Notes under the pieces: model-generated
Database searches by the model: none
Seen by the model: only the letters and a program-made list of their open reading frames with translations
Told to the model about the DNA's origin: nothing
Assembly: GCA_021413865.1 (NCBI GenBank)
Contig: JAIOPN010000010.1
Location: 1-32,013, forward strand
From: Planctomycetota bacterium
GTDB lineage: Bacteria; Planctomycetota; Phycisphaerae; Phycisphaerales; Phycisphaeraceae
DNA: 32,013 bases
Direction of reading: 5' to 3'
Part shown: positions 312 to 32,013 of the stretch, in pieces
Layout of the letters: every line of letters starts with the position of its first letter
Numbering within the stretch: the stretch's first letter is position 1
Position numbers and translations under genes: made by a program

Positions 312-321
312 GAATGCTCTA
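183..321 (+). mobile_element. Right end of IS630-type element with TA flank; inverted copy at 31875-32013
   Basis: Bases 183-321 are identical to the reverse complement of 31875-32013. Identity stops right after the TA at 320-321, where the flanks diverge, and it is limited on the other side only by the window end. This places the element terminus at 319 (inner end ...GGAATGCTC) with TA as the probable duplicated target, as expected for IS630-type elements. The element also covers 1-182, which the other copy does not reach. Confidence 0.85.
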
Positions 322-11621: not shown

Positions 11622-11871
11622 GGCTATCGACCTTCTGGAGGGAAGAAAAGGGGATAAGTTCGGGTCTTCCGGATGAAGAAGAGGTTGCGTGCGTCGGGGT
11701 CCGTAACACCCCTCCATGATGTCCCTTGGGGAGCGGGATTTCAAGACGATCCACTATCGGTCCGCCGGGCTCTCGGAACCGCCGTTTCCAAAACGCGGTT
11801 TTCTGCGTACCCTTATCCGCCTCCATCCGCCTGAAAAATCCTCACACACACTCATACACGGAGTCGGGTCC

Positions 11872-12708: not shown

Positions 12709-12760
12709 AGCCATTGGCCGTGGCCTCGGCGCGGGGCGTGTATCATGGCCCGACTCAACC

Positions 12761-15291: not shown

Positions 15292-15402
15292 GGGGAGAAC
15301 TGCCGCGGAGGGGAATCGCGACCCCGTTGACGCCGTGGCGGGCCTTCCTATGTAATAAGCCCGCCATCGCGCCGCGAAGCCCGACCCAGGAGACGCCAAG
15401 CC

Positions 15403-16659
15403 ATGTCCAAACCCGCGCTGCTCGGCGGCAAACCGGTCTTCTCCAAAACCCACCGCTGGCCCAGGTGGCCCCAGAGCGGGTCCGGCGACCGCAAGCGCGT
15501 GCTGGACGTGCTCGACGGCGACGAGTGGGGCATGGGCTCGCGCGCGACCGCCGAGTTCGCGCGACGCTTCGCCGGATATCTGGGCGCGAAATATGTCCTG
15601 CCCGTCAACACCGGCACCGCGGCGCTCGAGCTGATCGTCAAGGCGCTGGGCATCGGGCCGGGTGACGAGGTGATCGTCCCCTCCTACACGTTTGTGGCCT
15701 CGGCGACCTGCGTGCTGGAGGTCGGCGCGGGCGTGATCTTCGCCGACATCGACCCGCGCACGTTCAACATCGATCCCGAAGACGTCGCGCGCCGCATCAC
15801 GCCCCGGACGCGGGCGATCATCGCCGTCCACTTCGGCGGCAACCCGGCTGACCTCATCGGCCTCAGGGGCGTCATCGGGAAACGAAACATCGCGCTGATC
15901 GAGGACGCCGCCCACGCCCACGGCATGCTCTACCACGGCCACGGCGCGGGCCGCTTCAGCGCCGCCGCCGCGTTCAGCTTCCAGAGCTCCAAGAACATGA
16001 CCTGCGGCGAGGGGGGCGCGATCGCCACGCGCGACAAGAAACTCTTCGAGCTGGCGGGCAGCTTCCACTCCTTTGGCCGTAAGCCCGGCAAGGCGTGGTA
16101 TCAGCACTACTACCTGGCCTGGAACGACCGCATCTCCGCGATGCAGTCGGCGCTGCTGCTGGGGCAACTCGACCGGATCGAACCGCAGACGCGCACACGT
16201 TTCAGCAACGGCGCGTTCCTCAACCGCGAGCTGGCGAAGATCAGGGGGCTCTCGCCCCAGGCCGACGGCGACAGCCACCCGGATACACGGCGGGCGTACC
16301 ACGTTTACATGCTGCGCTACGACGGGCGTGAGACGGGGCTGGACCGCGCGGCGTTTCTCGAGGCGTTGCAGGCCGAGGGCGTGGGCTGCTCGCCGGGTTA
16401 TCCCGCGCCGCTGCAGGAGGCGCACCTGTTCACCGGCCGGCGGTTCTGGCACGCGCACCGGCTGGGCGGCGGGCCGAGGCTGTCGCACGAGCCGGACTAC
16501 CGGAAGATGAAAACGCCCGTCGCGAAAACGTACTGCGACGAGGCGGTCTGGCTGCCGCACCCCTACCTGCTGGCTTCGCGGAAGGAGATGCAGGGCGTGG
16601 TGGACGCGGTGGCGCGCGTGGTGGAGAACGCCGGCACGCTGCGGAAGCGTAGGTCATAA
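15403..16659 (+). CDS. DegT/DnrJ/EryC1/StrS family aminotransferase
   Basis: The 418-residue PLP protein of aspartate aminotransferase fold type I has the DegT signatures: NTGTAALELIVKALGIGPGD (69-88), VIVPSYTFVAS (90-100), the PLP-ring aspartate D168 (IEDAAHAHG) and the Schiff-base lysine K197 (SFQSSKNMTCGEGG). Members transfer an amino group to a keto-sugar or cyclitol; some act as dehydratases, but those usually lose the lysine, which is present here. There is no neighbouring nucleotide-sugar dehydratase, so the substrate may be a cyclitol or other keto compound. GGAG lies about 12 bases before the ATG at 15403. It is the fourth gene of the cluster, 111 bases after the first ceramidase-like gene and only 11 bases before the second. 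Confidence 0.92.
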   Translation: MSKPALLGGKPVFSKTHRWPRWPQSGSGDRKRVLDVLDGDEWGMGSRATAEFARRFAGYLGAKYVLPVNTGTAALELIVKALGIGPGDEVIVPSYTFVASATCVLEVGAGVIFADIDPRTFNIDPEDVARRITPRTRAIIAVHFGGNPADLIGLRGVIGKRNIALIEDAAHAHGMLYHGHGAGRFSAAAAFSFQSSKNMTCGEGGAIATRDKKLFELAGSFHSFGRKPGKAWYQHYYLAWNDRISAMQSALLLGQLDRIEPQTRTRFSNGAFLNRELAKIRGLSPQADGDSHPDTRRAYHVYMLRYDGRETGLDRAAFLEALQAEGVGCSPGYPAPLQEAHLFTGRRFWHAHRLGGGPRLSHEPDYRKMKTPVAKTYCDEAVWLPHPYLLASRKEMQGVVDAVARVVENAGTLRKRRS

Positions 16660-16670
16660 GGAAACGGATC

Positions 16671-17924
16671 ATGACGCTGCGAGCCGGTTTCGGATCGGCG
16701 GACATCACGCCCGCGCTGCCGTGCGACATCGATGGATTCGCGGGCAGGACGCAGCCCGCGGTCGGCGTGGCCGAGCCGGTGCTGGCTCGCGTGGTCGTGT
16801 TCACCAGCGGGCGCAGTGTCGCGGTGGTGGCGGTGTGCGACGTGCTGGGTTTCAGGATTGAGGACTCGGTGCGGCTGGAGCACGCCGCCGCGCGGGCCGC
16901 GGGCTGCCCGGTGGGCAACGTCTTCATCGCCTGCACGCACACGCACTCGGGGCCGATGTCGCAGCCGCTGGGCGAGTGTTTCCGGTTCGACCCCAAATAC
17001 ATCACGCTCGTCCGGCGGAAGCTGGTCGAGGCGGTGAAAACCGCGTGCGCGGATTTGTCGGCTGTCATCATCGCGCATGCCGGCTCGGTGAAGGCCACGG
17101 GGTTGGGCGAGTTCCGCTGCGCCCTGAGCGAGCCGGGCCGCGAGCGGTGGCCGGGGATGCTCTCGGCGTGGCGGCTCGTGCGCGAGCGCGGCGGGCCGAT
17201 CACGTTCTGGCACCTGGGCGTGCATCAATATCTCCTCGGCGGCCAGAGCCGCGTCATCCACCCGGATTACCCGGGGACGGCCTGCGGCATGATCGAGCGC
17301 GACGCCGGCGGCCACGCGCTCTTCCTGCCCGGCTGCGCCGGCGACGTGACGCCAATCCCGCAGATGCTCGACTCGATGAAGGAACTGGGGCGTTACTCGC
17401 GCCGCGTGGCGACGGGCGTCGAGGCTGCGCTCAAGAAGGGCGCCCCCGTGGCCGTGGAACCGCTCCGCGCGGGCGTGATCTCGCCGCGCATCCGCTATGG
17501 CTTCGAGCCCAATCTCAAGCAGGTCCTCGCCGACAACAGGCCGCCCCGCGCCGACGACTCGAAGCACGACCGCAACCTGCGCCGCTGGGCGCGGCTCTGG
17601 CGGCAGGGGCAGTTGCCGACCTCCGCCCACTTCCGCACGCACCTGCTGCAACTGGGCGGCGTGCTCCTGCTGGGGATGCCGGCCGAGCTTTTCTGCGACA
17701 CCGGCACGGAGATCACCGCCGCGCTGAAAAACATCCGCGTGCTCCCCACGGCCCACACGGGCGGGAACATCGGCTACCTCTGCCGCCCCTTCGCGTACAA
17801 GCACCACACCTACGAATCGCAGGCCCACGTCTGGTACGGCACCGCCGGCGCGGTTGTGCCGGGCACCGAGGCGAAGGTGCGCCGCACCGCGGTCCGCGCG
17901 GCGCGGGTGCTGACCCGGCGCTGA
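16671..17924 (+). CDS. Neutral ceramidase-fold hydrolase-like protein
   Basis: The 417-residue protein carries classical motifs of the neutral/alkaline non-lysosomal ceramidase N-terminal domain: GFGSADITP (6-14), IACTHTHSGP (86-95) with zinc-type H90 and H92, VIHPDYPGTACG (195-206) and LPGCAGDVTP (219-228). The family uses a zinc-activated serine to hydrolyse N-acyl amides, but many short bacterial members like this one lack the C-terminal immunoglobulin-like domain and have unknown substrates. No signal peptide is present. AAGGAAA stands eight bases before the ATG at 16671, and the gene follows the aminotransferase by 11 bases, so the two are surely co-transcribed. It is the last gene of the plus-strand cluster and converges with the YXWGXW gene, leaving 12 bases between stop codons. 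Confidence 0.88.
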   Translation: MTLRAGFGSADITPALPCDIDGFAGRTQPAVGVAEPVLARVVVFTSGRSVAVVAVCDVLGFRIEDSVRLEHAAARAAGCPVGNVFIACTHTHSGPMSQPLGECFRFDPKYITLVRRKLVEAVKTACADLSAVIIAHAGSVKATGLGEFRCALSEPGRERWPGMLSAWRLVRERGGPITFWHLGVHQYLLGGQSRVIHPDYPGTACGMIERDAGGHALFLPGCAGDVTPIPQMLDSMKELGRYSRRVATGVEAALKKGAPVAVEPLRAGVISPRIRYGFEPNLKQVLADNRPPRADDSKHDRNLRRWARLWRQGQLPTSAHFRTHLLQLGGVLLLGMPAELFCDTGTEITAALKNIRVLPTAHTGGNIGYLCRPFAYKHHTYESQAHVWYGTAGAVVPGTEAKVRRTAVRAARVLTRR

Positions 17925-17936
17925 GGCTGTGTGTTC

Positions 17937-19958
17937 TTATTTACCCCTGCGGCCACCCTCGCGGCCCGACGCCGCCGCGCGGGAATCGCCGTTGTCACCG
18001 GAGTTCGAGCGTGAGTTCGAGCCTGATCCCGAGCCCGAGGAGTCACCGCGGTGCGAGTCCGAGCCGCCGCCCCTGCGGTTCTCTTCGGATGACGGCCGGG
18101 AGGGCGGGTTGCCGTCGGAAGAACTTCGGCCTCCGAACCCGCCGCTGGGCTTATCGGAGATCGGCGGGGTCGGGATCTTGACCCGCTCGGGCCCGGTCAG
18201 CGGGACGCTGCGCGGCGGGAAGAACGGGTTGGCGCGGTCTGCGGAGGATTTGCCGGCGGAATCTTTCTTCGCAGCGGAGGGTGAAGGCGAATCCCCTCGG
18301 TCCGACGACTGGCCCCGCGGCATCGTCGGGCCGACGCGCTCGGAAGGCGTGGACGAATCCTTCTGCGACGGCGCTTGCGGCATCGACGGGGTGGCGCGAT
18401 CCGTTGATTTTGCCTGGTTGCCGCGGTTATCCGCCGGGGCCGACGGTGCGGCGCCCGGTTCTCTGCGGGTTTGCTGCGGCGCCTGCGGCCCGGTCGGGGC
18501 CGTTGCGCCGTTGCGTTGGTTGTATTGCGTGAACGGGTTCTTCGCGCCGGGGTTCTGGTCGGGAACGGCCGGGCCAGCCGACCCGCCGCGGTCACTCAGC
18601 GGAACCGAGCCGCTCTTGATGCGCGGGTCGGTCTGTGCCGTCGCGGGGGCCGACCGGCTGTTTTCCCAGCGGGTGCGTGCGTCGCGGAAGTTGTTCTGAT
18701 CGGCCGACTGGCGGGCGATCCTCTGCCGGGCCTCGTTGCTGACCGGCTGGAACTTGGTCGGCGCGTTCTTCTCGGCGACGACCTTGTTGAATGGCCGGGC
18801 CACTTCCATGCTCCTGCGTTCACCCGGCGGCGCCTTGGCCACCCGGGCCTCCATCTCGCGGTAGGTGCGCGGCGGGCGCAGGTTCTTGTCGGCGCGGCGG
18901 CGGTCGTACTCGTGCCGCTCGTGTTCGACCCAGTGCTTCTCGGTCTTGTGCCCGTGCCAGCGGCGGTACTCGAAGCAGGGGTCGTACCAGGTGCGGACGC
19001 GGTGGCAGTCGAACCACGGGTAGATGCCCACGCTCACATACACGTCGTCGTAGTAGTCGCCGAAGTAGTAGTGGCTGTAGCGCGGGTAGGCGAAGAGGCT
19101 GACGGTCAGCGTGTCAAGGCTCAGCACGATGTTCGGGGAGAAGACGAAGCCGGCGCGGACGTGGACGCGCGGCGGGACGTACACCGGCGCGAAGAGCACG
19201 CCGCGGCGCTCGAGCGGGTAGTCCCAGTGGCCGCGGAGGAAGACGTAGCCGCGCGGCGTCCAGTGGTAGTAGGAGGGAACCCAGACCCAGCCGACCTGCG
19301 GCGTGAGCCAGTAGCCGTTGCGGATGATGTACCGGCCGTCGTTCCAGTAGTAGCAGGGCGGAACCCAGATAACGTCCACCGAGGGGGGCGGCCCGGCTGG
19401 CGGCTGCGCGTCGGAGATGACGGGCGGCGCGGGGAGGTACTCGATCTCCTGAGAGCCGGCCGGCGTCCAGAAACCTGGGACCCACTCGAACCCGCCGGCT
19501 ACCGGTTCCCAGTACCCGGGAACCCAGGACATGCCCGGCGGCGCGACGCGCCAGCAGCCGGTGGTCCAGATGTAGCCGTTGCGGTCGGCGTCCCAGGCCC
19601 AGTAGCCCGGGATCCAGACGATGTGGTCGCCCTCGGGCCGTTCCGCGGGCGCGGCTTCGTTGAGGCCGGCCGGCGGCGCGATCGGGGCGACCAGGCCCCC
19701 CTGCGTCTGCACCTCCACGGGTTCGGCGAAGGATTCATTCACCGGGCCGCGGGTCAGGACCTCGGGCTGCTCCTCGGCCGGCGCCGGCGGTGGGGTGGCG
19801 CTTGGATTGTCACTCAGGGGTTGCTGCGGCTGGACCTGCGGGGCCGGCTCGTAGGCGGCCATTGTTGAACCCGCCCCGCCGCTCATCCCATATCCGTATC
19901 CCAGTGATGCAGCGATCAGAAACGCCGTGGTCCAATTTGTGGAAGTCTGCTGAAACAT
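17937..19958 (-). CDS. YXWGXW-repeat protein with long disordered tail
   Basis: The 673-residue protein has tryptophan/tyrosine repeats between residues 113 and 245: VWIPGYW (114-120), WVPGYW (145-150), WVPGFW (159-164), WVPPCYYW (198-205), WVPSYYHW (226-233) and LRGHW (241-245). These are typical of YXWGXW-repeat proteins, common in planctomycetes and probably in the periplasm or envelope. A Tyr-rich section follows (YPRYSHYYFGDYYDDVYV, 291-308) with a charged coil near 330-360. Residues from about 440 are low in complexity, ending in Ser/Gly/Asp/Arg-rich sequence. The N-terminus (TAFLIAASLGYGYG) is only weakly hydrophobic and lacks basic residues, so the export route is unclear. CAGGAGG lies eight bases before the ATG, an unusually strong site for this region. 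There is no PEP-CTERM tail. Function unknown. Confidence 0.85.
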   Translation of the reverse strand: MFQQTSTNWTTAFLIAASLGYGYGMSGGAGSTMAAYEPAPQVQPQQPLSDNPSATPPPAPAEEQPEVLTRGPVNESFAEPVEVQTQGGLVAPIAPPAGLNEAAPAERPEGDHIVWIPGYWAWDADRNGYIWTTGCWRVAPPGMSWVPGYWEPVAGGFEWVPGFWTPAGSQEIEYLPAPPVISDAQPPAGPPPSVDVIWVPPCYYWNDGRYIIRNGYWLTPQVGWVWVPSYYHWTPRGYVFLRGHWDYPLERRGVLFAPVYVPPRVHVRAGFVFSPNIVLSLDTLTVSLFAYPRYSHYYFGDYYDDVYVSVGIYPWFDCHRVRTWYDPCFEYRRWHGHKTEKHWVEHERHEYDRRRADKNLRPPRTYREMEARVAKAPPGERRSMEVARPFNKVVAEKNAPTKFQPVSNEARQRIARQSADQNNFRDARTRWENSRSAPATAQTDPRIKSGSVPLSDRGGSAGPAVPDQNPGAKNPFTQYNQRNGATAPTGPQAPQQTRREPGAAPSAPADNRGNQAKSTDRATPSMPQAPSQKDSSTPSERVGPTMPRGQSSDRGDSPSPSAAKKDSAGKSSADRANPFFPPRSVPLTGPERVKIPTPPISDKPSGGFGGRSSSDGNPPSRPSSEENRRGGGSDSHRGDSSGSGSGSNSRSNSGDNGDSRAAASGREGGRRGK

Positions 19959-20483: not shown

Positions 20484-21596
20484 ATGATTCAGGTGATCGA
20501 ATCCATTGAACCCGCACTGGCGCGGGAGGTGCGCGAGTACCTCCTGCAGTCGCCCGGCGCGTGCCCCGAGCACGACCCGCGGTGGCTGGATGTGCTGCGC
20601 CGCGGCCTGCATCACCGGCCGATCGCGGTCATATCGAGGGACGAACAAAACATAGGCCGGATCGACGGCTACCTGCCACTGGCCTTGGTAAGCACAAAGT
20701 TATTCGGACGTTTCCTCGTTAGCCTCCCCTACCTGAATCGTGCCGGCGTCGTGGCGGACGACCCCGCGATCGCGGCGGCGCTGATCGATGAGGCGGTGCG
20801 GCAGGCAGAGCGGCTGAACGTGCAATACCTTGAATTGCGCCACGGCGGCCCTATTGAACATGGATCACTACCCGCTCGTCGCGACGAAAAAGTGCGGATG
20901 GTGCTGGAGTTACCGCCCAATGAAGAGGCGCTCTGGAAGGCGATGGACGCGAAGGTGCGGAACCAGGTTCGCAAGGGGGACAAGAGTGAGCTGACGCTCC
21001 GCTGGGGCGGCTTGGACGTGTTGGGTGATTTCTACGACGTTTTCGCGGTGAACATGCGTGACCTAGGCACGCCGGTCTATTCCAAGGGCCTGTTCCGCGA
21101 GATTTTGAGCAATCTGTCCGATCTGGCCGAGTTGGCGGTGGTCAATTACCAGGGCAAACCGATCGCCGGGGCCCTTCTGATCCACGACCTCCCGCTCGCG
21201 TCCGGCGAAACCGTACCGGATAAGAACGCCGTTCATGCGCTCGGCTCCGGCCGCGCCGCCTCGACGCAGGTGCCCTCCGCCAGCGCCCTGCGGGAACACA
21301 GTTCCACGAGCGCGAACATGTGGATGTATCACAAGTTATTGCTGCGCGCGATGGAGCGGGGCAGCCGGGAGTTTGATTTCGGTCGATCCAGCCTGGACTC
21401 GGGGACGTACCGTTTCAAGAAGCAATGGGGCGCGGCGCCTCAGCCGACGGTGTGGCAGTATCACGTCCGCAGTGGGGACATCAACGCGGTCCGGCCCGAT
21501 AGTCCCAAGTACCGCCGTCGCGTCGAAACGTGGCAGAAGCTGCCGGTCTGGCTGACGCGCCTGATCGGTCCTTCCATTGTGCGAGGTATCCCGTGA
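20484..21596 (+). CDS. FemAB-like acyltransferase of exosortase (PEP-CTERM) systems
   Basis: The 370-residue protein matches the FemAB-family, GNAT-fold proteins that accompany exosortase/PEP-CTERM loci and are thought to act in peptidoglycan or exopolysaccharide assembly. Diagnostic blocks are HDPRWLDVLRR (30-40), GYLPLALVSTKLFGRFLVSLPY (62-83), LNVQYLELRH (111-120), KVRNQVRKGDKS (157-168), TPVYSKGLF (196-204), VPSASALR (263-270), TSANMWMYHKLLLRAMERG (275-293) and FDFGRSSLDSGTYRFKKQWGA (297-317). Residues about 235-262 look like an extra loop compared with relatives, where the VPSAS block follows the preceding strand closely. The product should be cytosolic. The ATG at 20484 has no strong Shine-Dalgarno sequence. 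Its TGA overlaps the next gene's GTG (GTGA, 21593-21596). Codon use is less GC-extreme than in the following genes. Confidence 0.9.
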   Translation: MIQVIESIEPALAREVREYLLQSPGACPEHDPRWLDVLRRGLHHRPIAVISRDEQNIGRIDGYLPLALVSTKLFGRFLVSLPYLNRAGVVADDPAIAAALIDEAVRQAERLNVQYLELRHGGPIEHGSLPARRDEKVRMVLELPPNEEALWKAMDAKVRNQVRKGDKSELTLRWGGLDVLGDFYDVFAVNMRDLGTPVYSKGLFREILSNLSDLAELAVVNYQGKPIAGALLIHDLPLASGETVPDKNAVHALGSGRAASTQVPSASALREHSSTSANMWMYHKLLLRAMERGSREFDFGRSSLDSGTYRFKKQWGAAPQPTVWQYHVRSGDINAVRPDSPKYRRRVETWQKLPVWLTRLIGPSIVRGIP

Positions 21597-23482
21597 GCAC
21601 CCAGCCTCAACCCGACCCCACGGCACCGGCGCCCACCAGCGGGTCGGGCGCACCGCCGCGCGCGATCTCGATCCCGGTGGATGAACGGCCGCGCCTGCGC
21701 GGGGTGGACGTGCGGGCCCTGCTGGCGGCGGCGGCGCTGCTCACGGTGGGGTGGTGGAACACATTTGGCGAGATGTGGCTGCGCTGGTTCCCGGCGTGGA
21801 CCCACACGGACCTGTCGCTCTCCAAGCGCCTGACCGAGGGCGACTCCTATTACACGCACGGCCCGATGGTGCCGCTGATCAGCCTGTTCATCGCCTTCTG
21901 CATCCACAGGCGCGTCGGCGCGCCGTGCAGCCGGACCACGCCCTCGCGGTTCCTCGCGGTCTGCGTCGGGCTCTTGAGCCTGGTTTTCATCCGCCTGGGC
22001 GCGTCGTACATGGGCGAGGCGCTGGGGCGCGCGACGTTCCTGCTCCCCGCGGGGGCCTGCATCGGCGTCGCGGCCTGGCTCTACAGGCGCGGCGGGACTC
22101 TGCCGGCCACGCTCGTGGGCGGGCTCATGCTCGCCGGGTCGCTCCTGCTCCACCTGCTGAGCGTTTACGCGCGGGTCACGTTCGTCTCTGGCTTCGCGCT
22201 CATCGGCACGCTGGCGGCGCTGGTCGTCCTGTGGGGCGGGTGGTCGCTGCTGCGGGCCTACTGGCTGCCTGTGGTGTTCCTGATCTTCATGGTGCCGCTG
22301 CCGATGGAGAAGATCGCGCAGCTCAACTTCGAGCTCAAGTTCCTCGCCGGTGAAGCGGCGGTCTGGACGACCAACCGCGTCTTCCACGTCCCGGCGGTGA
22401 TGTCGGGCAGCTACGTCCATTTCCTGCCCGGGCCCGATGGCCAGCCCAAGACGCTCGTCGTCGAGGACGTCTGCTCGGGCCTGCGCAGCATGATCTCGCT
22501 GATCTGCTTCGCGTCGCTCTTCGCGCTGGTCTGCCGCGTCAAGGGGCTCTGGCGGGTGCTGCTGCTCCTGCTCGCGGTGCCGGTGGCGGTGTTCTGCAAC
22601 ATCGCGCGGATGACGTTCCTTAATCTGATCGCGCACTACTACACCACCCGTGACGCCGGCCCCGACAGCGCGCTGCACGGCATGTCGGGCATGCTCGTGT
22701 TCGCCCTGGCGCTGGCGATCCTCTTCGGCGTCGAGCAGATCATCCTCTTCGCCGGCCGCAGGCTCCACCGCGACTGGTCGGACGAGCGCCTCCTGGGGTT
22801 CCTCGACGCCCTGCCCAGACTCAAGCACTCGCTGCCCGCGGTGGCGCGGCCCGGGGTGCTGGCGGCGCTGGCGCTCTCGGCGGTGCTCTCGCTCTACTGG
22901 TCCCGGCAGGCCGTCGCCCAGAACGTCAGCGGCGAGGCCAAGCAGGCGGTGCCCGCCTCCGTCACGATCGACGGCAAAGTGCTCAAGGGCCAGGACTACG
23001 ACCTCGACGAGAAGACCCTGATCATCCTGGAGACCAACGACTACATCTACCGCCGCTACGCCGCCGCCGCGACGGGGCGGGGCGTGGACCTGCTCATCGT
23101 CTTCAGCGCCAGCAACCGCAAGGGGACGCACCCGCCCGAGGTCTGCCTCCAGGGCGCCGACCAGCAGATCACCTCCAAGCAGGAGTACGAGGTGAAGCTG
23201 CCGCGCACCGGCTCGATCCGGATGCGCGAGCTGATCACGCAGCGCAGCCGCGGCGGCCAGACGCTGCACCTGTACGTGTACAAGTGCGGCGACAAGTACA
23301 CGCCCGATTTCACCGCGCAGCAGGCGACGATCTTCATCAACAGCCTGCTGCGCCGCAACGCCTCGGGCGCGCTCATCCGTTACAGCGTGGACGTGACCGG
23401 AGACGACCTGGACGCGGCCCGGCGCACCGCCGTTGCCGCCGTCGAGGCAACGATGCCCGTCATCGACAAGCACCTGCCCTGA
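21593..23482 (+). CDS. Exosortase fused to EpsI-type C-terminal domain
   Basis: The 629-residue inner-membrane protein has about eight to ten hydrophobic segments followed by a periplasmic EpsI/DUF3485-type domain. The exosortase core is clear: GDSYYTHGPMVPLI (83-96), the catalytic Cys294 (VVEDVCSGLRSM), Arg339 (CNIARMTFLN) and His362 (ALHGMSGML), the transpeptidase-like triad that cleaves PEP-CTERM tails. After a final membrane segment (about 419-436), the C-terminal part carries the EpsI signature HPPEVCLQGA (513-522). GTG at 21593 is chosen as start: it overlaps the FemAB stop and has GAGG seven bases upstream, whereas the frame upstream lies inside FemAB. The N-terminus has a Pro-rich cytosolic lead (1-38). 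No PEP-CTERM substrate is encoded in the window. Confidence 0.93.
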   Translation: MSTQPQPDPTAPAPTSGSGAPPRAISIPVDERPRLRGVDVRALLAAAALLTVGWWNTFGEMWLRWFPAWTHTDLSLSKRLTEGDSYYTHGPMVPLISLFIAFCIHRRVGAPCSRTTPSRFLAVCVGLLSLVFIRLGASYMGEALGRATFLLPAGACIGVAAWLYRRGGTLPATLVGGLMLAGSLLLHLLSVYARVTFVSGFALIGTLAALVVLWGGWSLLRAYWLPVVFLIFMVPLPMEKIAQLNFELKFLAGEAAVWTTNRVFHVPAVMSGSYVHFLPGPDGQPKTLVVEDVCSGLRSMISLICFASLFALVCRVKGLWRVLLLLLAVPVAVFCNIARMTFLNLIAHYYTTRDAGPDSALHGMSGMLVFALALAILFGVEQIILFAGRRLHRDWSDERLLGFLDALPRLKHSLPAVARPGVLAALALSAVLSLYWSRQAVAQNVSGEAKQAVPASVTIDGKVLKGQDYDLDEKTLIILETNDYIYRRYAAAATGRGVDLLIVFSASNRKGTHPPEVCLQGADQQITSKQEYEVKLPRTGSIRMRELITQRSRGGQTLHLYVYKCGDKYTPDFTAQQATIFINSLLRRNASGALIRYSVDVTGDDLDAARRTAVAAVEATMPVIDKHLP

Positions 23483-23508
23483 CCCGCGGGCGACCCGCGC
23501 GCACCACC

Positions 23509-26367
23509 ATGAAGAAACGTCTGACGATCCTGGGTGTCGCGGTGGGGGCGTTGATCGCGCTGGTGGTTGTGCTGCAGGTGTTCCGCGGGCGCATCGCCGA
23601 CGCCAACATGGGCGAGTTGGAGCACCGCCTGGCCGGCGGCGACCCGGAGGCGCGCCGCGCCGCCGCCGCGATGATCCTGCGCGTCAGGCCCGACCACCCG
23701 GAGGCCCTGATGGTCAGCGCCGAGGGGCTGCTGGACCTGGGCAAGCGCGAGGACGCCCGGCGCATCCTCGAAGGCATGACCGCCCGCGCCGATGCGCCCG
23801 GGTTCCGCCGCGCCGTCATGCTGCTCACGCGGACTTATCTCGACGAGGCGGCCGATCAGGTCTATACCGGCGACGTGGACCTGGCGCTGGAGCGTGCCGA
23901 GCCGCTGATCGATCAGGCGCTGGAGGTGCGCGGCCGCGTCAAAGACGACGAGGGCGGCGACATGCTGCTGATCGAGGCGCGTGCGATGGACCTGCGCGCC
24001 ACGCTCCTGGAGAGGCGCCTGCGTGCCCGCTCCCTGGAACTGGCCAAGGCGCGGGCGGTGAACTACGAGCAGCAGGTCGAGTCCCTGGCGCAGGCGGTGG
24101 ACGAGACGGCCACGCTGATCACGGCCGAGGACATCAAACTCGCCGCCGTCTGCCTCCGCGCCAACCAGGCCGCGCCCGAAGACCCGTACGCCTACCTGTA
24201 CAACTTCCGCCGCTTCCTCCGCGCCGGCAACACCGCCGAGGCCCGCGCGGTCGCCGGGCGGTTGCTCGGCCTGAAAATCATCGACCGCGCCGTCGCCGGC
24301 GAGGTGGCGCACACGCTCCTGAGCATCGAGTCCATCTACGCCCGCCCCGTGACGCCCCAGGACATCTCCGTGGCGCACGCGCTGCTCAGCTCGCCCGCGC
24401 TAAGCCGCACGCCCAGCCTCTGGCATCGCCTGGCGGAGACCGAGCTGGCGCTCGAGGAGCACAGGCCCGCCGACGCCGAACGCCTGGCGCGTGCCATCCT
24501 GGGCGACCCGGAATCCCAGGGCCACCCGCGCGCCACGAACCTCCTGGCCCGCGCCATGATCGATCAGAACCGCGCCTCCGAGGCCGTGGCGTTCATGACG
24601 CGGTTCAACGACCGCGTGTTGACCTCCGACGGGTTGATGATGCAGGGCATGGCGCACCTGGCCGACGGCGACAACAACCGCGCGCGCGAGGTGCTACGCC
24701 AGAGCCTGGACCTGGACCCGCAGAACCTGCCGGCGCGGCTGGCGATGATCCAGTCGATGGTCGAGCGCAACGCCGTGCTCGAAGCCGATCAGGACATCCT
24801 TATCGCTCAGAAAATCAGCCCCGACCACCCGCGTGTGGTGGCGTTCTGCGCCCGGCTGTTCATCGAGAAGCTCGACAGGCGGTCGTTGCTCAAGCTGCTG
24901 GCGCCGGTGGTGACCCCACAGGCCGTCACGCCGCGCGACGTGCGGCTCGCCGCCCTGATGGCGCTGGACGACCGCGCCGCCCTCGAGCCGGTCGTTGCGG
25001 CGCGACTGGGCGGCAAGGCCAGCGATGTCCTGGCCATCTTCGCCGACGCCTGGCTGCGGTGCGGCGCCCGCCGCAGGTGGGAGACCGCTTTCCTCATCAA
25101 CCACTGCCTGTTCGACGCCCTCACCTCCGACCCGTTGCGCCTGGCCCACGCCCCCGTGAGCCCCGCGCCGCTCGACCCTTCGCTCCTCCCGGTGATCACC
25201 CCCGAGAGCGACGCCCCCATGGTTCCCTCCGAGGTGGACGCCAGGTACTTCGTCCCCTCGCTGCCGCAGGCCGCGCTGGCGGTGACGGAGGTCGCCGTTG
25301 ATCGCTGGCCGGGCGAACGGCCGGCCCTCCTGCCGGTGATGATCGAGCTGGCGCTCTGGTCGGGGCGCGACGAGGCGGCGCGCCGGTTGTTGAGCGAGGT
25401 CTCGCCACCGCCGGCGGAAGGCACCCTGCTCGCGGCCGTGCGCGACTATCTGGGCGGCTCCACGCCAACCAGCCTCGACGGGCTGCCGGCCTCGCCCACG
25501 CGGTATTGGCTGCAGCTCGCCGTTGCGCTGCGCTCGTCGGACTCGGACCGCCCGCTGCTCCGCCTCACCAGCCTGATCACCGCGCACAGTTGGGCCGAGC
25601 CGGCGCTGCTCATGTTCATGCGCACCGAGCTGGAGCGTGACGACGTGGTCGGCGCCAAGCTGGCCATCGAGGCCACGCAGAAGCTCAACCCGGAGATGGC
25701 GCGGCTGGCCACGGGGCGGTTGAACCTGGCGCAGCGGTACCCGCGCGAGGCGATGGAGGAGGCCGACGTCGTCGGGCACGACGAGGCCGCCGATTCGGAG
25801 GTCCGCATCCAGGCCGCGGAGATCGCCGCCCGCGCCTACCTGCTGGTCGGTCAATCCGAGATGGCGACCTTCGCCTTCGACAGCCTGTCCTACTCCATGC
25901 CCGACCGCAAGCTCGACATGCGGATGCACGCGCTGGACATCCTGATCCTGAGCCGCAAAACGGCCACGGCCTCGGCGAGCTCGCTCGCCGTCGAGGCGCA
26001 GAACGCCCGCGCCGTGCTCGACCGCGTCCTGGTCCGCGCCGCGACCATCATGCCCCCCCAGCGCCTCAACGTGCTGATCGACAACATCCTGCTCTATCAG
26101 CCCAACGAGCCGATACTCTGGCTGCATCAGGCCAACGCGCAGGTCGCCTCGGGCGAGTTGGGCCGTGCCCGCCGCCTGCTCGAACGCCTGCGCCAGGTCG
26201 TGCCCGACGCCCCGCGCATCGCGGAGCTGGCGCGGAGCATCGAGCACGCCCAGACACAGCCGGCGACCCGCCGCTCCGACACAGCCCCGCCGCCCGCGCA
26301 GCCCCCCCGGCCCGGCGATCCGCCCCCGCCCGCCACCCAACCCTCGGAGACGGGAGGCGGCGAGTGA
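23509..26367 (+). CDS. Membrane-anchored TPR protein of the exosortase operon
   Basis: The 952-residue protein has an N-terminal membrane anchor (LTILGVAVGALIALVVVLQVF, about 5-25, preceded by KKR) and a long series of helical tetratricopeptide-like repeats, for example HPEALMVSAEGLLDLGKRED and GMAHLADGDNNRAREVLRQS, ending in GELGRARRLLERLRQ. The last 40 residues (913-952) are Pro/Thr/Gln-rich and disordered. The repeats should form a periplasmic solenoid for protein contacts; anchored TPR proteins are regular members of exosortase/exopolysaccharide loci. The ATG at 23509 lies 26 bases after the exosortase stop and lacks a clear Shine-Dalgarno sequence; the frame upstream overlaps exosortase and is not coding. 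Its TGA overlaps the GTG of the protease gene. It is unlike the second TPR protein in anchor type and sequence. Confidence 0.88.
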   Translation: MKKRLTILGVAVGALIALVVVLQVFRGRIADANMGELEHRLAGGDPEARRAAAAMILRVRPDHPEALMVSAEGLLDLGKREDARRILEGMTARADAPGFRRAVMLLTRTYLDEAADQVYTGDVDLALERAEPLIDQALEVRGRVKDDEGGDMLLIEARAMDLRATLLERRLRARSLELAKARAVNYEQQVESLAQAVDETATLITAEDIKLAAVCLRANQAAPEDPYAYLYNFRRFLRAGNTAEARAVAGRLLGLKIIDRAVAGEVAHTLLSIESIYARPVTPQDISVAHALLSSPALSRTPSLWHRLAETELALEEHRPADAERLARAILGDPESQGHPRATNLLARAMIDQNRASEAVAFMTRFNDRVLTSDGLMMQGMAHLADGDNNRAREVLRQSLDLDPQNLPARLAMIQSMVERNAVLEADQDILIAQKISPDHPRVVAFCARLFIEKLDRRSLLKLLAPVVTPQAVTPRDVRLAALMALDDRAALEPVVAARLGGKASDVLAIFADAWLRCGARRRWETAFLINHCLFDALTSDPLRLAHAPVSPAPLDPSLLPVITPESDAPMVPSEVDARYFVPSLPQAALAVTEVAVDRWPGERPALLPVMIELALWSGRDEAARRLLSEVSPPPAEGTLLAAVRDYLGGSTPTSLDGLPASPTRYWLQLAVALRSSDSDRPLLRLTSLITAHSWAEPALLMFMRTELERDDVVGAKLAIEATQKLNPEMARLATGRLNLAQRYPREAMEEADVVGHDEAADSEVRIQAAEIAARAYLLVGQSEMATFAFDSLSYSMPDRKLDMRMHALDILILSRKTATASASSLAVEAQNARAVLDRVLVRAATIMPPQRLNVLIDNILLYQPNEPILWLHQANAQVASGELGRARRLLERLRQVVPDAPRIAELARSIEHAQTQPATRRSDTAPPPAQPPRPGDPPPPATQPSETGGGE

Positions 26368-27239
26368 CCCGTCCCCGCTTCAAGACCCATCGCCTCTGCG
26401 CCGCCGCGTTGTCGCTGTTGGCGTGGCTGTCGGTCGCGCCCGCGTGGGGCGCCGAGCCCGCCGCGACACAGCCCGCCGCCGCGCCGGTGGACCCTTACGT
26501 CAAGGCCGTCGCGCGCGTCAGGCCCAGCGTCGTGGGCGTGGGCAGCTACTACTACAAGGACACGCCGAGCGTTCAGTACGCGGGCACCGGCTTCGTGGTC
26601 GGCGACGGGTTGACCGTTGCGACCAACCAGCACGTCGTCGAGGCCATCCGTCAGCGTGACCGCACCGCGCAGCTGCGGGTGTTTTTCCCCGACGGTGCGG
26701 CGACGGACGGCCGTCGCGCCACTGTGGTGGCGGAGGACCGCTTCCACGACGTGGCGCTGCTGAAGATCGAGGGCCCGGCCGCCCCGGCGCTGGAACTGAG
26801 CGAGCAGACCCCGGCGCAGGGCCAGTCCGTGGGGATCCTGGGCTACCCGATCGGTCTGATGCTTGGTCTGGTGCCGGCGACGCACCGGGGCGTGGTGGCG
26901 GCGGTGGTGCCCTCGGTGCTGCCGCTGCCCACGGGGGCGAAGCTGACGCCGGAACTGGCCGAGGCCATCAAGCGGCCGTATAACCTGTACCAATTGGACA
27001 TGGTCGTGTTCCCAGGCAACAGCGGCAGTCCGATGTTCGACGCCGGTGACGCGCGGGTGCTGGGGATCATCAACAAGACGTTGGCCGATCGCACCCGCGA
27101 GCACCTGCTAACCAACCCCAGCGGCATCTCCTACGCGGTGCCGATCTGCTGGGTGCGTGAGCTTATGCTCCGGAGCGCCGCGGAACGGGCTGAAACACCG
27201 GGTGTCCCCGCGACCCCCGTCAACGGGACAACCCCCTGA
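26364..27239 (+). CDS. Exported trypsin-like serine protease (S1C/DegP-like, no PDZ)
   Basis: The 291-residue protein has a signal peptide (LCAAALSLLAWLSVAPAWGA, cleavage near 29-30) and a short Ala/Pro-rich linker, then a trypsin-fold protease domain. The triad is H90 (ATNQHVVEA), D129 (RFHDVALLKI) and S220 (FPGNSGSPMF). GTGFVV (75-79) and GYPIGL (160-165) are typical of the HtrA/DegP group, but no PDZ domain follows, as the protein ends soon after the protease domain. It should act in the periplasm or at the surface, possibly maturing or clearing envelope proteins handled by the exosortase system. GTG at 26364 overlaps the upstream stop (GTGA), with GGAGG six bases ahead, which supports coupled translation and fixes the start. 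Confidence 0.92.
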   Translation: MTRPRFKTHRLCAAALSLLAWLSVAPAWGAEPAATQPAAAPVDPYVKAVARVRPSVVGVGSYYYKDTPSVQYAGTGFVVGDGLTVATNQHVVEAIRQRDRTAQLRVFFPDGAATDGRRATVVAEDRFHDVALLKIEGPAAPALELSEQTPAQGQSVGILGYPIGLMLGLVPATHRGVVAAVVPSVLPLPTGAKLTPELAEAIKRPYNLYQLDMVVFPGNSGSPMFDAGDARVLGIINKTLADRTREHLLTNPSGISYAVPICWVRELMLRSAAERAETPGVPATPVNGTTP

Positions 27240-27292
27240 TCGCATCAACACACACCGGCACGGTCCACGCGACCGGCCAGGGAGGCTTCATC

Positions 27293-30200
27293 ATGCGGAC
27301 CTTTAGGCACATCATGACCGGTTTGGTGATCACGACGGCGGCGCTGGCCGTGACGGGCTGCGGCGAGAGCCCCGAGCTCAAGCTCCAGCGCGCCAAGATC
27401 GCCCTCTCCACGGACCACCCCGAGCAGGCGCTGCGCCTGGCCGAGTCGGTCCTCAAGGAGCAGCCCGACAACAGCGAGGCGGTCCGCTACAAGGCCATCT
27501 CCCAGATGCGTCTGGACAAGCTCGAGGAGGCCCGCGCGACGCTCGACGGGCTGCTGAGCAAGAAGCCCGACGACCTCGAGGTCCGCAAGCTCCTGACGGA
27601 GTGGGGCTTCCGCCGGCTCGCCGAGCTGATGCGTCAGAGCACGTTCGCCGGCAGCGCGGAACTACAGGCGGAGTACGACAAGGTGCTCGAGCAGGGCGTG
27701 CAGCAGGCGGAGTGGATGGAAACCAAGGGCAAAGACACGGCGGAAGCCCGGTTCCTGCGCGGCCGCTACGCCGAGGCCGACGCCCTGCGCCTGACCGCGA
27801 TCGCGCGCGACAAGCGTTCCGACCCGGCGAACCTGAGCCCCGACACGAAGGAGCCGACGGAGATCGCCAACGAGGCGATCCGCCAGGTCGAGGCCAAGGC
27901 TCTAGCGCGCGGGCGCGAGGCCTCCGAGCAGATGCGCTCCGCGCTCGAGGCGAACCCCCGGCTGTTCGACGCGGCGGAGATGTACGCCCGCCTGCTCACG
28001 CTCCAGGAGGATTGGTCGATGCTCTGGGCGATGGCCAACAGGCTCGCCGGCGAGGGCGAGATCCCGGTGTCGGTCTTCGAGCGGGTGTCGCTGGGATTGA
28101 TGCGGATGCCCGACGTGATCCACCCGACGGCGGATCGCCTGGGCCTGGCCCGCAAGCTCCAGGAGAAGGTCGGCAAGACCGATCAGCAGTCCACCGCGTG
28201 GAAAGTCACTTCGGCGCGGCTGGACCTCATTGAAAAAAACTACAGCCACGCCGGGACGCTGCTGGACGAGGTGCTCCAGGCCAATCCCCGCGACGTGGAC
28301 GGCCGGTACCTCAAGGCGCAGTCGCTGTACGGCCTGGAGAAGTACGCCGACGCCAAGGCGATCCTCGACAAGCTCAGCACCGAGCAGGCGCGGTCGCCGC
28401 TGGTGCAGGCGCTCTACGGCCTGACGCTGGTGAAACTCAACGATAAGGTGCTGGCCAAAGAGGCCCTGCGCCGCGCGACGGAACTCGACCCCGCCAACGC
28501 GCTGGCGCGCGGGGCGTTGATCCAGCTCATGGCCGAGGAGGGCCGCATGAAGGACGCGAAGGAAGACGTGGAGGTCTTCTACCGCAATAACCCCGGCGAC
28601 CCCAGCGCCATCCGCATCAAGATGGGCTACGAGATGTCCAACGGCCAGGTGAACAACGTCAAGGACCTGCTCGAGCGGGTGGACAAGGTCTCCCCGCGCA
28701 CGCCCGAGCTGATCAACATCCTGGTGGACGGTTACGTGGCGTTGAAGAACTACCCCCGCGCCGAGCGGTTCGCCGCCGAGCTGGTGCGGGCACGGCCCGA
28801 TGCGCTGGGCTCGCACCTGGCGCTGGCGCAGGTGCAGCTTCTGCAGGGGCGTGACGACGAGGTCCGCACGAGCCTCGCCGCGCTGAAGGAGAAGTTCCCC
28901 AAGGCCGGCGGCGTCGATCAGATGCTCGGCCGGCTGTACCTGCAGCGCGGCTCCTTCGACAAGGCCGTGGAACTGCTGCGCAACGTGGTGAAGCAGGAGC
29001 CGGCCAACCAGGGGGCGCGCCTGTCGCTGGCGCAGGGGCTGATGGCGCTGTCGCTGCCGGACGAGGCGCTCGAGCAGGTCCAGGTGGTGCTGGACCGTTC
29101 GCCGCAGGACGTGCAGGCGCACGCCCTGGCGGCGCGGACGTACCAGATGATGGGCCAGGCCGACAAGGCCGCCGAGCACCTCCAGCAGATCGACCTGGCG
29201 ACCGTGGATGAAACCAGCAACCCGACGCTGGTGGCGCAGCTCAACCTGCGGCAGGGCCAGCTCGACCAGGCGATCAGCGTCGCCAACCGCGCGGTGGCCT
29301 CGGGCAACCCCGACCCGTCGCTGCGTCTGCTGCTGGCCGACGCCTACAACCGCAAGCAGGACTACCCGCAGGTCGAGACGAACCTGATCGCCCTGGTCAA
29401 GGCGCAGCCGACGAACTCCAGGGCATTCGAGATGCTCGCGCGGTTCTACGTCGCGACCAAGGACATCGATCGCGGCCTGCTCTCGCTGTCGAACCTCCAG
29501 CCGGTCAACGAGGTGCTGTCGCGCATCAGCCAGGCCGCCGTCCTGTCGGCGGTGGGTCGGCGCGACGAGGCGCTGCAGCGCGTGGACCCGGTCTATGCGC
29601 CGCTGATCAAGGCCCGGTCCAAGGACGCGCTGGTCGTGGCGGACGCGATGGCGTCGATCTACGTCATCCTGGATCAGCCGGCCAAGGCGTTCGCGGTCTA
29701 TGAGCCGCTCAACGAGGCCAAGCTCTTCCCCGTCGAGGTCGCCATGCGCCAGATGCAGCTCACCTCGGGCAGGGACAAGCCCGACGAGGTGCTGGCCAAG
29801 CTCGAGCGCGTGGTCTCGCTCCTCACGCCCGAGCAGAAGATGTACCGCCGGCCGATCGTGCTGCGGTACATGTCGATCGCCAAGTACGACCGCGCCCTGC
29901 AGTTGATCGACGGCTGGCGGCAGGCGGACGCCAAGGACGTGTCGCTGATGATGCTCAGGGGCGAGGTGTACTCGCAGATGGGCCGGACGAAAGAGGCGAT
30001 CGAGTCCTACAACGCCGCCATGGCCGCGGAGCCGGAAAACGTCCGTGTGCGCCAGACCCTGGCGCAGGCGCACGTCGAAGACCGGGACTACGCGGGCGCC
30101 GAGGCGGCGCTCGACGAGATGGCGAAGATCGATGATGGCGCGCGGATCATGTCGCTGGCGATGAAGGGCCAGATGTTCATGGAGCTGGGCCTGTTGCAGC

Positions 30201-31738
30201 AGGCGACCGCGACGTTCGAGGAACTGGACCGCACGGGCAAGGCGCGTGACCCCAGGGTGATCTTCGCCATGGGCCGTGCCTACTCGGGCCTTCACCAGGA
30301 CGAACTGGCGATGAAGCGTCTGGCGGAGGTGCCCGCCTACGCGCCGCAGTACGCGCCGGCGCAGATCCTGCTGGCCAGGCTCGAGCAGCGGCGCGGCAAG
30401 GGCGACCAGGCCAAGACCCGGCTCGAACAGCTCGCGCGCAGCCCGGCGACCGTTTACGCCGCCACCCACGAGCTGTTGGCGCTCAGCGCCAAGAACCAGC
30501 AGGACGAGGAGCTGCTGCGCTGGAGCGACCAGGCCCTGTCGATCGAGCGGTTGCCGCCGACAGCGCGGGCGACGTGGCTCAACACACGCATCACGCTCCA
30601 GGCCAATCGCCGCGACTGGACCGGCGTCGCCAAGACCCTCGAGGACCTGGCGGAGATCAAGAAGGACTCGCTGAGCGTGGCCGCGGCCCGGACCGTGGTG
30701 ATGCTGCACCTCCGCCGCCCCGAGGACGCCCAGCGGATTTTCCGCTCCCAGCCCAAGCTCGCCCAGGCGCCAGACGCCTACGCGCTGGCGTTTCTCCTGC
30801 AGGAAAAGGCCGCCAAGCAGGACCTGCCCATGGCGGACTTCATGATCGCCATGGCCTCGGGCGACCCCGCCGCGGCGCGCTCGGCGGCCGAACGCATCAA
30901 GAACCGACGCACCCTCTTCCGTGACGACCTGCTCTCGGTCGTCAACCGCCCCGACGCCTCATCCCCCGAGATGAGCGCCGCCTTCCGCGACTTGACGTTT
31001 GCCATGGTCGCGCTGGAAGTCGGTCTGCCCCAGATCACCACCGAGGTCTCGCAGGATGTCATCAACCGGTTGCCGGCGATCGTGCCTGCGTACGGCCTGA
31101 TGGCGCAGAGCCTCAACGACCGCGAGCTGCCCGCCGATGAAACGCTCGATCGTCTCAAGCGCGCCGTGCCCAACAGCGCCACCGCCCTGCTGCTCTCCGC
31201 CTTCGACAAGATGCGCAGCAAGGACAACGCCGGCTCGCTGGCCGACTTCCAGGCCCTGCTCAAACGCGAGCCCGACAACGAGCACCTCCAGTACAACGTC
31301 GCGCAGGCTCTGCAGCGCCTGAACAACGTTGACCAGGCCATCCCTCTGCTACAAAAAATCTACGACGCCAACGGCGCGTACAAGTTCGCCGCCGCCAACG
31401 ACCTGGCCTATCTGATGGCCGTGCACCAGCCCGGGAAACTCCCCCAGGCCAAGGAGATCGCACAGACCGCCTTCAAGGTCGCCCCACAGTTCACCCCACT
31501 GCTCGATACCGTCGGCTGGATCGAACACCTGCAGGGCAACGACAAGCAGGCCCTTGCCCTGCTCAACCGCGCCCTGGCGGGACTAAAGGACGTTGCGGAG
31601 GTGCAATACCACCTCGGCGTCGTCTATCAAAAATTGGGCAACAAGACGTGGGCGGGCTACCACCTCAAGGAAGCGCTCGCCAACGGCGACAAGGACGCCC
31701 AGTGGCGCGCCGACGCGGAAAAACTCCTCAAGGGCTGA
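27293..31738 (+). CDS. Giant TPR-repeat lipoprotein (PrsT-like)
   Basis: The 1481-residue protein has a lipoprotein signal peptide (MRTFRHIMTGLVITTAALAV) with the lipobox VTGC and lipidated Cys23. The rest is a continuous array of TPR-like helix pairs, for example LAESVLKEQPDNSEAVRYKA, KEALRRATELDPANALARGA, GSFDKAVELLRNVVKQEPAN and NRALAGLKDVAEVQYHLGVV. This fits the PEP-CTERM-system TPR lipoprotein PrsT, though it is clearly longer than the roughly 900 residues I recall for that family. It probably forms a periplasmic scaffold for exopolysaccharide or protein export, anchored to a membrane. GGGAGG lies seven bases before the ATG at 27293. It is the last gene of the operon, 53 bases after the protease, and is followed by a strong terminator 17 bases after its stop. 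Confidence 0.9.
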   Translation: MRTFRHIMTGLVITTAALAVTGCGESPELKLQRAKIALSTDHPEQALRLAESVLKEQPDNSEAVRYKAISQMRLDKLEEARATLDGLLSKKPDDLEVRKLLTEWGFRRLAELMRQSTFAGSAELQAEYDKVLEQGVQQAEWMETKGKDTAEARFLRGRYAEADALRLTAIARDKRSDPANLSPDTKEPTEIANEAIRQVEAKALARGREASEQMRSALEANPRLFDAAEMYARLLTLQEDWSMLWAMANRLAGEGEIPVSVFERVSLGLMRMPDVIHPTADRLGLARKLQEKVGKTDQQSTAWKVTSARLDLIEKNYSHAGTLLDEVLQANPRDVDGRYLKAQSLYGLEKYADAKAILDKLSTEQARSPLVQALYGLTLVKLNDKVLAKEALRRATELDPANALARGALIQLMAEEGRMKDAKEDVEVFYRNNPGDPSAIRIKMGYEMSNGQVNNVKDLLERVDKVSPRTPELINILVDGYVALKNYPRAERFAAELVRARPDALGSHLALAQVQLLQGRDDEVRTSLAALKEKFPKAGGVDQMLGRLYLQRGSFDKAVELLRNVVKQEPANQGARLSLAQGLMALSLPDEALEQVQVVLDRSPQDVQAHALAARTYQMMGQADKAAEHLQQIDLATVDETSNPTLVAQLNLRQGQLDQAISVANRAVASGNPDPSLRLLLADAYNRKQDYPQVETNLIALVKAQPTNSRAFEMLARFYVATKDIDRGLLSLSNLQPVNEVLSRISQAAVLSAVGRRDEALQRVDPVYAPLIKARSKDALVVADAMASIYVILDQPAKAFAVYEPLNEAKLFPVEVAMRQMQLTSGRDKPDEVLAKLERVVSLLTPEQKMYRRPIVLRYMSIAKYDRALQLIDGWRQADAKDVSLMMLRGEVYSQMGRTKEAIESYNAAMAAEPENVRVRQTLAQAHVEDRDYAGAEAALDEMAKIDDGARIMSLAMKGQMFMELGLLQQATATFEELDRTGKARDPRVIFAMGRAYSGLHQDELAMKRLAEVPAYAPQYAPAQILLARLEQRRGKGDQAKTRLEQLARSPATVYAATHELLALSAKNQQDEELLRWSDQALSIERLPPTARATWLNTRITLQANRRDWTGVAKTLEDLAEIKKDSLSVAAARTVVMLHLRRPEDAQRIFRSQPKLAQAPDAYALAFLLQEKAAKQDLPMADFMIAMASGDPAAARSAAERIKNRRTLFRDDLLSVVNRPDASSPEMSAAFRDLTFAMVALEVGLPQITTEVSQDVINRLPAIVPAYGLMAQSLNDRELPADETLDRLKRAVPNSATALLLSAFDKMRSKDNAGSLADFQALLKREPDNEHLQYNVAQALQRLNNVDQAIPLLQKIYDANGAYKFAAANDLAYLMAVHQPGKLPQAKEIAQTAFKVAPQFTPLLDTVGWIEHLQGNDKQALALLNRALAGLKDVAEVQYHLGVVYQKLGNKTWAGYHLKEALANGDKDAQWRADAEKLLKG

Positions 31739-31755: not shown

Positions 31756-31787
31756 AAAAGACCGGCCTTCATCGGGCCGGTCTTTTT
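31756..31787 (+). terminator. Rho-independent terminator of the exosortase operon
   Basis: AAAAGACCGGCC (31756-31767), a seven-base loop TTCATCG, and GGCCGGTCTTTT(T) form a perfect 12-base stem ending in a T-run. An outer pair AGCCAAC (31739-31745) and GTTGGCT (31788-31794) could lengthen the stem. The A-rich 5' arm makes it potentially bidirectional, so it could also stop transcription coming from the IS on the right. Confidence 0.92.
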
Positions 31788-31874
31788 GTTGGCTGAAAGC
31801 CCCGACGGGTTTTGTTCGGTTGATTGAGGGTCATTGCATTGGACTGGATGAATACAAGCTAATCACGGCCCAAC

Positions 31875-32013
31875 TAGAGCATTCCTATTCCGTCTGTAGC
31901 GTATACCCGCAGTGGCGGAAGCAGTTCATCGCGTCTGAAGCCGTCACGCGGTCCAGCACGCCCTGCATCGCCGACCACAGGGCCTCACCGGTCCGGCAGG
32001 CCAGCGAGCGCAG
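31875..32013 (-). mobile_element. End of second IS630-type copy, inverted relative to the left copy
   Basis: This is the exact reverse complement of 183-321, beginning with TA (31875-31876) and the element terminus GAGCATTCC at 31877. The copy runs off the window. The 80-odd bases between the operon terminator and this element hold nothing I can recognise. Confidence 0.85.
31885..32013 (-). CDS. IS630-family transposase, C-terminal fragment (cut by window end)
   Basis: Read on the minus strand, this encodes the last 42 residues or so of the same transposase as at the left edge, from LRSLACRTGEALW through HCGYTLQTE, with the stop TAG at 31885-31887. No catalytic residue falls inside the fragment, because the DDE glutamate lies upstream of the cut, beyond the window. 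Identity to the left copy is complete over the shared part, which means recent transposition, gene conversion, or an assembly effect at a repeat. Confidence 0.88.
   Translation of the reverse strand: MRSLACRTGEALWSAMQGVLDRVTASDAMNCFRHCGYTLQTE

Follow-up and report, generated by a model that had tools for sequence, protein, structure and literature searches.

In the genome of the Phycisphaeraceae bacterium with assembly accession GCA_021413865.1, two exosortases are encoded alongside dozens of PEP-CTERM proteins, which raises the question of which enzyme serves which protein. One of the two exosortases is encoded in the stretch of DNA analysed here (the window; contig JAIOPN010000010.1, 32,013 nucleotides), which is the entire contig C5; the genome comprises 67 contigs and 4.37 Mb. 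A sequence-only reading of the window had described a compact operon of FemAB, an exosortase fused to EpsI, two tetratricopeptide repeat (TPR) proteins and a protease at positions 20484–31738. This was borne out: the five genes are all located on the plus strand and are tightly spaced (−4, 26, −4 and 53 bp). Judging from tail sequences and their distribution among relatives, we consider it fairly probable that the operon is a second PEP-CTERM sorting system, with an exosortase dedicated to one class of tails (class B), and that the exosortase on contig C47 serves the other (class A).

A search of the genome with the PEP-CTERM model TIGR02595 yielded 30 matches at E ≤ 10, of which 24 exceeded the cut-off. 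None is located on contig C5, which agrees with the earlier statement that the window lacks a PEP-CTERM tail, and no class B match was listed for this contig either. When the 30 matches were read individually, 23 belonged to class A and six to class B, and the one at C10:51161 was found not to be a tail. Class A tails follow the pattern PEP-[AST]-S-[LIV], with A, S or T after PEP, S at the next position in 21 of the 23 and then mostly L. Their spacing from PEP to the arginine cluster is 14–15 residues in all 23 cases. Class B tails read PEP-[VILA]-[TS], followed mostly by A, and the spacing is 18–19 residues in all six, giving a membrane segment in this genome about one helical turn longer than in class A. 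A short tail rule thus splits the classes within one genome and would predict the enzyme.

A class B model was built from the six tails of this genome and the tails beside the operon in the relatives G118 and G100. It scored 44–54 bits for the six training tails and at most 15.3 bits for the remaining tails of the genome, in which it has 13 matches at E ≤ 1e-3; this set overlaps the 24 TIGR02595 matches. All 55 tails scoring at least 20 bits in the fetched loci end no more than five residues before the stop codon. Seven of them originate from genomes without a window-type exosortase; among these, the G142 tail can be assigned to class B by reading, and the remaining six are class A or intermediate. 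Among the 45 best class B tails, all from genomes with a window-type exosortase, 43 have a spacing of 17–19 residues and two, both of G082, of 15. With the tails removed, proteins of the two classes can be paralogues: in the window's genome, C4:232165 (class B) is 32% identical to its neighbour C4:233315 (class A) over 207 residues, and C60:181545 (weak class B) is 52% identical to C3:7074 (class A) over 225 residues. Two PEP-CTERM tail classes in Phycisphaerae are not mentioned in the titles and abstract openings searched, among which few subscription papers were covered.

Relatives were searched among 201 genomes of the order. A window-type exosortase (46–60% identity) was found in 20 relatives, all from the family to which the window's genome belongs, so that the family set of 51 genomes comprises 21 with and 30 without this enzyme. 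PEP-CTERM tails as such were considered as a discriminating feature and rejected, as they are present in 50 of the 51 family genomes and all 51 have an exosortase match. At E ≤ 1e-6, class B tails occur in 18 of the 21 genomes with the window-type exosortase and in none of the 30 without (Fisher p 5e-11). Without the three genomes from which the model tails were taken, the values are 15 of 18 and 0 of 30. Across the order at E ≤ 1e-5, 19 of 201 genomes matched, namely 18 with the window-type exosortase plus G142, and none of the 150 outside the family; this control scored at most 41 candidates per genome and is less sensitive than the family search. No window-type exosortase was detected in G142, a genome that is 66% complete and belongs to the same genus as G145, which has the enzyme. 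In a set of 70 exosortase loci that extended the search to more distant exosortases, class B matches of at least 39 bits were obtained only in L252, L253, L261 and L262, which are the already counted G118, G106, G011 and G100; the next best match reached 21.6 bits, the search covering the loci and not the whole genomes of those relatives.

Gene neighbourhood provides additional evidence. At least 1 kb of sequence is available after the second TPR gene in 13 relatives, and in six of these a PEP-CTERM gene follows the operon directly. Its tail is of class B in four loci (G118, G100, G011 and G106). In G100 (88% complete), the gene beside the operon is the only class B match of the genome and thereby forms a minimal pair with the enzyme. 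According to the available part of PMC3237569, a dedicated system pairs a sorting enzyme with a single target, and such targets tend to adjoin the enzyme. GlyGly-CTERM/rhombosortase and the other dedicated pairs treated in that part resemble the present case in the co-occurrence of enzyme and tail and in the lone target beside the enzyme, whereas the enzyme families are unrelated. The NCBIfam names of XrtC and XrtD likewise refer to their own tails (VPDSG and VPLPA), so a dedicated pair of exosortase and tail is of a known kind. The founding paper (PMC1569441) states, in the part available, that PEP-CTERM regions are more alike within species than between species.

The rival that survives best holds that class B is lineage drift within ordinary PEP-CTERM, that either exosortase processes either class and that the co-occurrence stems from shared ancestry. 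Kinship among the genomes means that the raw counts and p-values given above overstate independence. In an rpoB tree of 47 of the 55 genomes (43 of the family and four outgroups; quick search without bootstrap), from which six genomes without an rpoB match and the too short sequences of G142 and G091 were omitted, the exosortase state changes five times. This leaves three supported independent pairs, five in all. Class B goes the same way as the enzyme in 2.6 of the three supported pairs on average and never the opposite way, a result that is not significant in a sign test.

Several further observations weigh against a dedicated class B enzyme, and many of them are what drift would produce. 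The line of E ≤ 1e-6 was set after the table had been seen; relaxing it to E ≤ 1e-3 gives 19 of 21 genomes with and 14 of 30 without the enzyme, and the matches thereby added are weak (best 1e-5). G115 (95% complete) and G166 (51% complete) have no class B match and G160 (82% complete) has no strong one, only a weak match, although all three have a window-type exosortase. The tails read in these three genomes resemble class A or belong to PEPTT types, and the locus of G115 is without the first TPR gene and the protease. Some tails of G115 and G160 that are not class B have intermediate spacings of 16–18 residues, as have many Omnitrophota tails, so it is only in the window's own genome that spacing separates the classes cleanly. 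The adjacent tails of G118 and G100 helped to define class B, which leaves G011 and G106 as independent cases of adjacency. After the operons of G070 and G109 the genes have PEPG tails, which are nearer to class A, and for the other seven of the 13 loci the motif scan found no PEP-CTERM gene after the operon. General models also recognise part of class B. Against TIGR02595 (cut-off 16), four class B proteins of the genome gave 16.8, 13.0 or no score, and against the Pfam PEP-CTERM model (cut-off 20.7), three gave 16.4, 23.1 and 28.5. Since some of the tails pass this general model, class B forms a subclass within PEP-CTERM, with no model of its own in these scans; one class B protein passes NF038130 (116.6 bits, cut-off 60) and one the choice-of-anchor K model, both through their bodies.

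Drift does not easily explain that both classes coexist in one genome with non-overlapping spacings, that none of the contrasts goes in the wrong direction and that class B genes adjoin the operon, including the lone one in G100. We therefore regard it as a rather unlikely explanation, and favour an exosortase dedicated to class B. As class A is nearly universal in the family, we infer that the C47 exosortase serves that class. In the proposed sequence of events, the C-terminal helix of secreted class B proteins would keep them in the membrane, and the window-type exosortase would cut near PEP with its Cys/Arg/His site. The cut protein would then be passed to an anchor that FemAB, two glycosyltransferases and an acyltransferase make or decorate, and the TPR lipoprotein and the protease may have periplasmic roles in transfer or quality control. 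In the window's genome, the glycosyltransferases and the acyltransferase would be supplied from loci away from the operon. A more tentative extension, which we consider possible rather than probable, is that two exosortases in one membrane distinguish their substrates by the residues flanking PEP and by the length of the membrane segment, routing even paralogues to two different anchors.

Profile classification, one of the checks suggested along with the sequence-only reading, places the enzyme (21593–23482, plus strand) in the exosortase family and assigns it to no named type. It exceeds the cut-offs of PF09721 (146.8 bits, cut-off 25.7) and TIGR04178 (49.1, cut-off 23), and its EpsI part exceeds those of DUF3485 (75.0) and TIGR02914 (58.8, cut-off 42.8). 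The window protein falls short of the subfamily model TIGR02602 (94.4 bits, cut-off 105.55), whereas several relatives with this type of exosortase exceed that cut-off. The motifs around Cys (CSGLRS), Arg (NIARMTF) and His (LHGMSG) are present, as is the EpsI motif HPPEVC. C286, R331 and H354 of the aligned exosortase sequence, which we take to be the catalytic residues, are invariant in all 16 aligned members. None of the named types was reached by the window protein: it scored 199.8 bits against a cut-off of 400 for XrtD (TIGR04152), 153.6 against 425 for XrtW (NF038142), 105.4 against 313 for XrtV and 96.2 against 208 for XrtA (TIGR03109). XrtD, the best-scoring named model, spans both the exosortase and the EpsI-like part, and XrtW is second best over the same span. 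Both models match all 16 aligned members, with a best E value of 5.4e-71 for XrtD, the comparison of score and cut-off being known for the window protein alone. The tails that were read are PEP-V/I-T-A and not VPLPA, for which XrtD is specific. No sequence in the PDB matches the exosortase profile at E ≤ 0.01. The earlier suggestion of a distinct exosortase subtype is thus supported, albeit on other evidence, namely that no named-type cut-off is reached and that the enzyme has its own co-occurring class of tails.

The best start of the exosortase gene is a GTG at 21593, which gives a 4-bp overlap (GTGA) with the stop codon of the FemAB gene. That gene (20484–21596, plus strand) encodes a FemAB-family protein of the XrtA/PEP-CTERM-associated type (TIGR03019, 323.7 bits, cut-off 260.35). 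It is followed downstream of the exosortase by the first TPR protein (TPR1; 23509–26367, plus strand, ATG at 23509), which matches TPR_19 with 73.3 bits and has an N-terminal membrane anchor by eye. The next gene (26364–27239, plus strand) encodes a trypsin-like serine protease (PF13365, 75.0 bits, cut-off 27.6), whose His, Asp and Ser motifs and signal peptide-like N-terminus were read by eye; the profile scan gave no PDZ match. The last protein is a large PrsT-like TPR protein (TPR2; 27293–31738, plus strand), which is probably a lipoprotein, judging by a lipobox (LAVTGC) seen by eye. Neither TPR protein reaches the cut-off of the PrsT model TIGR02917 (312.2), with 248.8 bits for TPR2 and 52.8 for TPR1. 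Within the exosortase, a largely hydrophobic stretch of 54 codons (21935–22096, plus strand) is nearly entirely missing from the 15 aligned relatives. This stretch of about 50 residues is in frame, and two relatives carry a short, different insertion at the same place. It has no repeat elsewhere in the window and no clear match among the fetched relatives.

These features also bear on a second rival, that of an ordinary XrtA-like FemAB/PEP-CTERM locus which has no special substrate preference and was cut by the contig end and by rearrangement. The XrtA (EpsH) system with FemAB and PrsT is similar in having the FemAB equivalog, which passes its XrtA-associated model, an EpsI domain passing its own, a PrsT-like TPR protein and, in most relatives, upstream glycosyltransferases. 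In addition, the best model for the GT4 glycosyltransferase on contig C64 is the XrtA-system glycosyltransferase stp2, at a score far under its cut-off. In contrast to that system, the window exosortase stays far under the XrtA model, is fused to EpsI, shares its operon with a serine protease gene and an additional TPR gene, and co-occurs with a distinct, longer-spaced class of tails. This makes an ordinary XrtA-like locus improbable.

The arrangement in relatives is a reverse NuoB-like gene, a glycosyltransferase, a GT4 glycosyltransferase, an acyltransferase of the hexapeptide type, FemAB, exosortase, TPR, protease and TPR, although some relatives lack one or another of these genes. The reverse NuoB-like gene was seen by eye in seven of the 20 fetched stretches. 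At least one glycosyltransferase is located upstream in 15 of the 18 loci with upstream sequence, the window included; G000, G082 and G160 have none there, and the loci of G166, G088 and G145 are cut. A tblastn check of gene order re-covers 18 of the same loci and is not independent. In G160 (L078) and G082 (L071), the module of FemAB and exosortase likewise stands without upstream glycosyltransferases, and in G160 it comes after rpoB and an rpoC-like gene.

The statement that glycosyltransferase, chain-length and polymerase genes are absent holds for the window, as none of these families was matched among its open reading frames that were scanned, which were not all of them. With proteins of G097 as queries, the best match of the GT4 glycosyltransferase in the window's genome is C64:29121-30302 (71% identity; next best on C35, 44%) and that of the other glycosyltransferase C64:27815-28963 (56–60% identity). 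The two adjoin each other right after a NuoB-like gene (by eye), as in relatives. The acyltransferase has its best match at C4:406721-407275 (69% identity). In G097, which is sister to the window's genome on the rpoB tree, the exosortase is preceded by an unbroken series of both glycosyltransferases, the acyltransferase and FemAB, with no protease called. Given this order and the best matches on C64 and C4, a split of the locus in the window's lineage is most likely, provided that the assembly is right.

The C47 exosortase is, with the window protein, one of the two TIGR02602 matches of the genome. It is longer than the exosortase domain and its end appears EpsI-like by eye, while the EpsI model had no match to it at E ≤ 1e-5. 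It belongs to a polysaccharide cluster that also encodes an export protein best matched by EpsE (74 bits), a TPR protein of large size, a kinase resembling Wzc (124 bits, which exceeds the TIGR01007 cut-off), an epimerase recognised by eye and a transferase resembling WecA (125 bits); except for TIGR01007, these names are best matches under their cut-offs. The view that the machinery is separated from its genes and targets is accordingly right locally and misleading genome-wide, given the glycosyltransferases on C64, the acyltransferase on C4, the cluster on C47 and the 24 tails. A system lacking glycosyltransferases or substrates, which the local absence in the window had suggested, is very improbable; the genome as a whole refutes it, unless sequences of different organisms were combined in the assembly (estimated contamination 3%). 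The local absence most likely reflects rearrangement and a contig cut at an insertion sequence.

Both contig ends lie in copies of this element, which share a 139-bp identical inverted repeat at 183–321 and 31875–32013. The left end (6–321, plus strand) encodes the C-terminus of a DDE_3 transposase, a computed match (PF13358, 58.1 bits); the element is IS630-like. At the right end (31875–32013, minus strand) the contig stops within the element. Directly 3′ of the operon, a hairpin with a T run resembling an intrinsic terminator was seen by eye (31756–31788, plus strand). It is only 86 bases away from the repeat, so the sequence once located 3′ of the operon lies outside contig C5. No further copies of the element end were found in 40 stretches fetched for this purpose, which were mostly contig ends (134 ends exist), and in eight other loci of the genome.

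Besides or instead of the two kinds of exosortase, some family genomes have a third kind (L102, L106, L107, L108 and L110), of about 300 amino acids, with a separate EpsI-like gene and polysaccharide-type neighbourhoods. The tails of this kind may form yet another class. Directly upstream of FemAB in the window, a protein of 673 amino acids (17937–19958, minus strand) carries repeated W-x-PGYW-like motifs and matches nothing in Pfam or NCBIfam at E ≤ 0.01. It occupies the slot in which the acyltransferase stands in most relatives. Positions 11716–17924 of the window contain a PhyH dioxygenase-like gene, an MFS transporter, two enzymes, one of which is weakly similar to neutral ceramidase, and a DegT-type sugar aminotransferase, which together are perhaps a sugar or lipid catabolic cluster.

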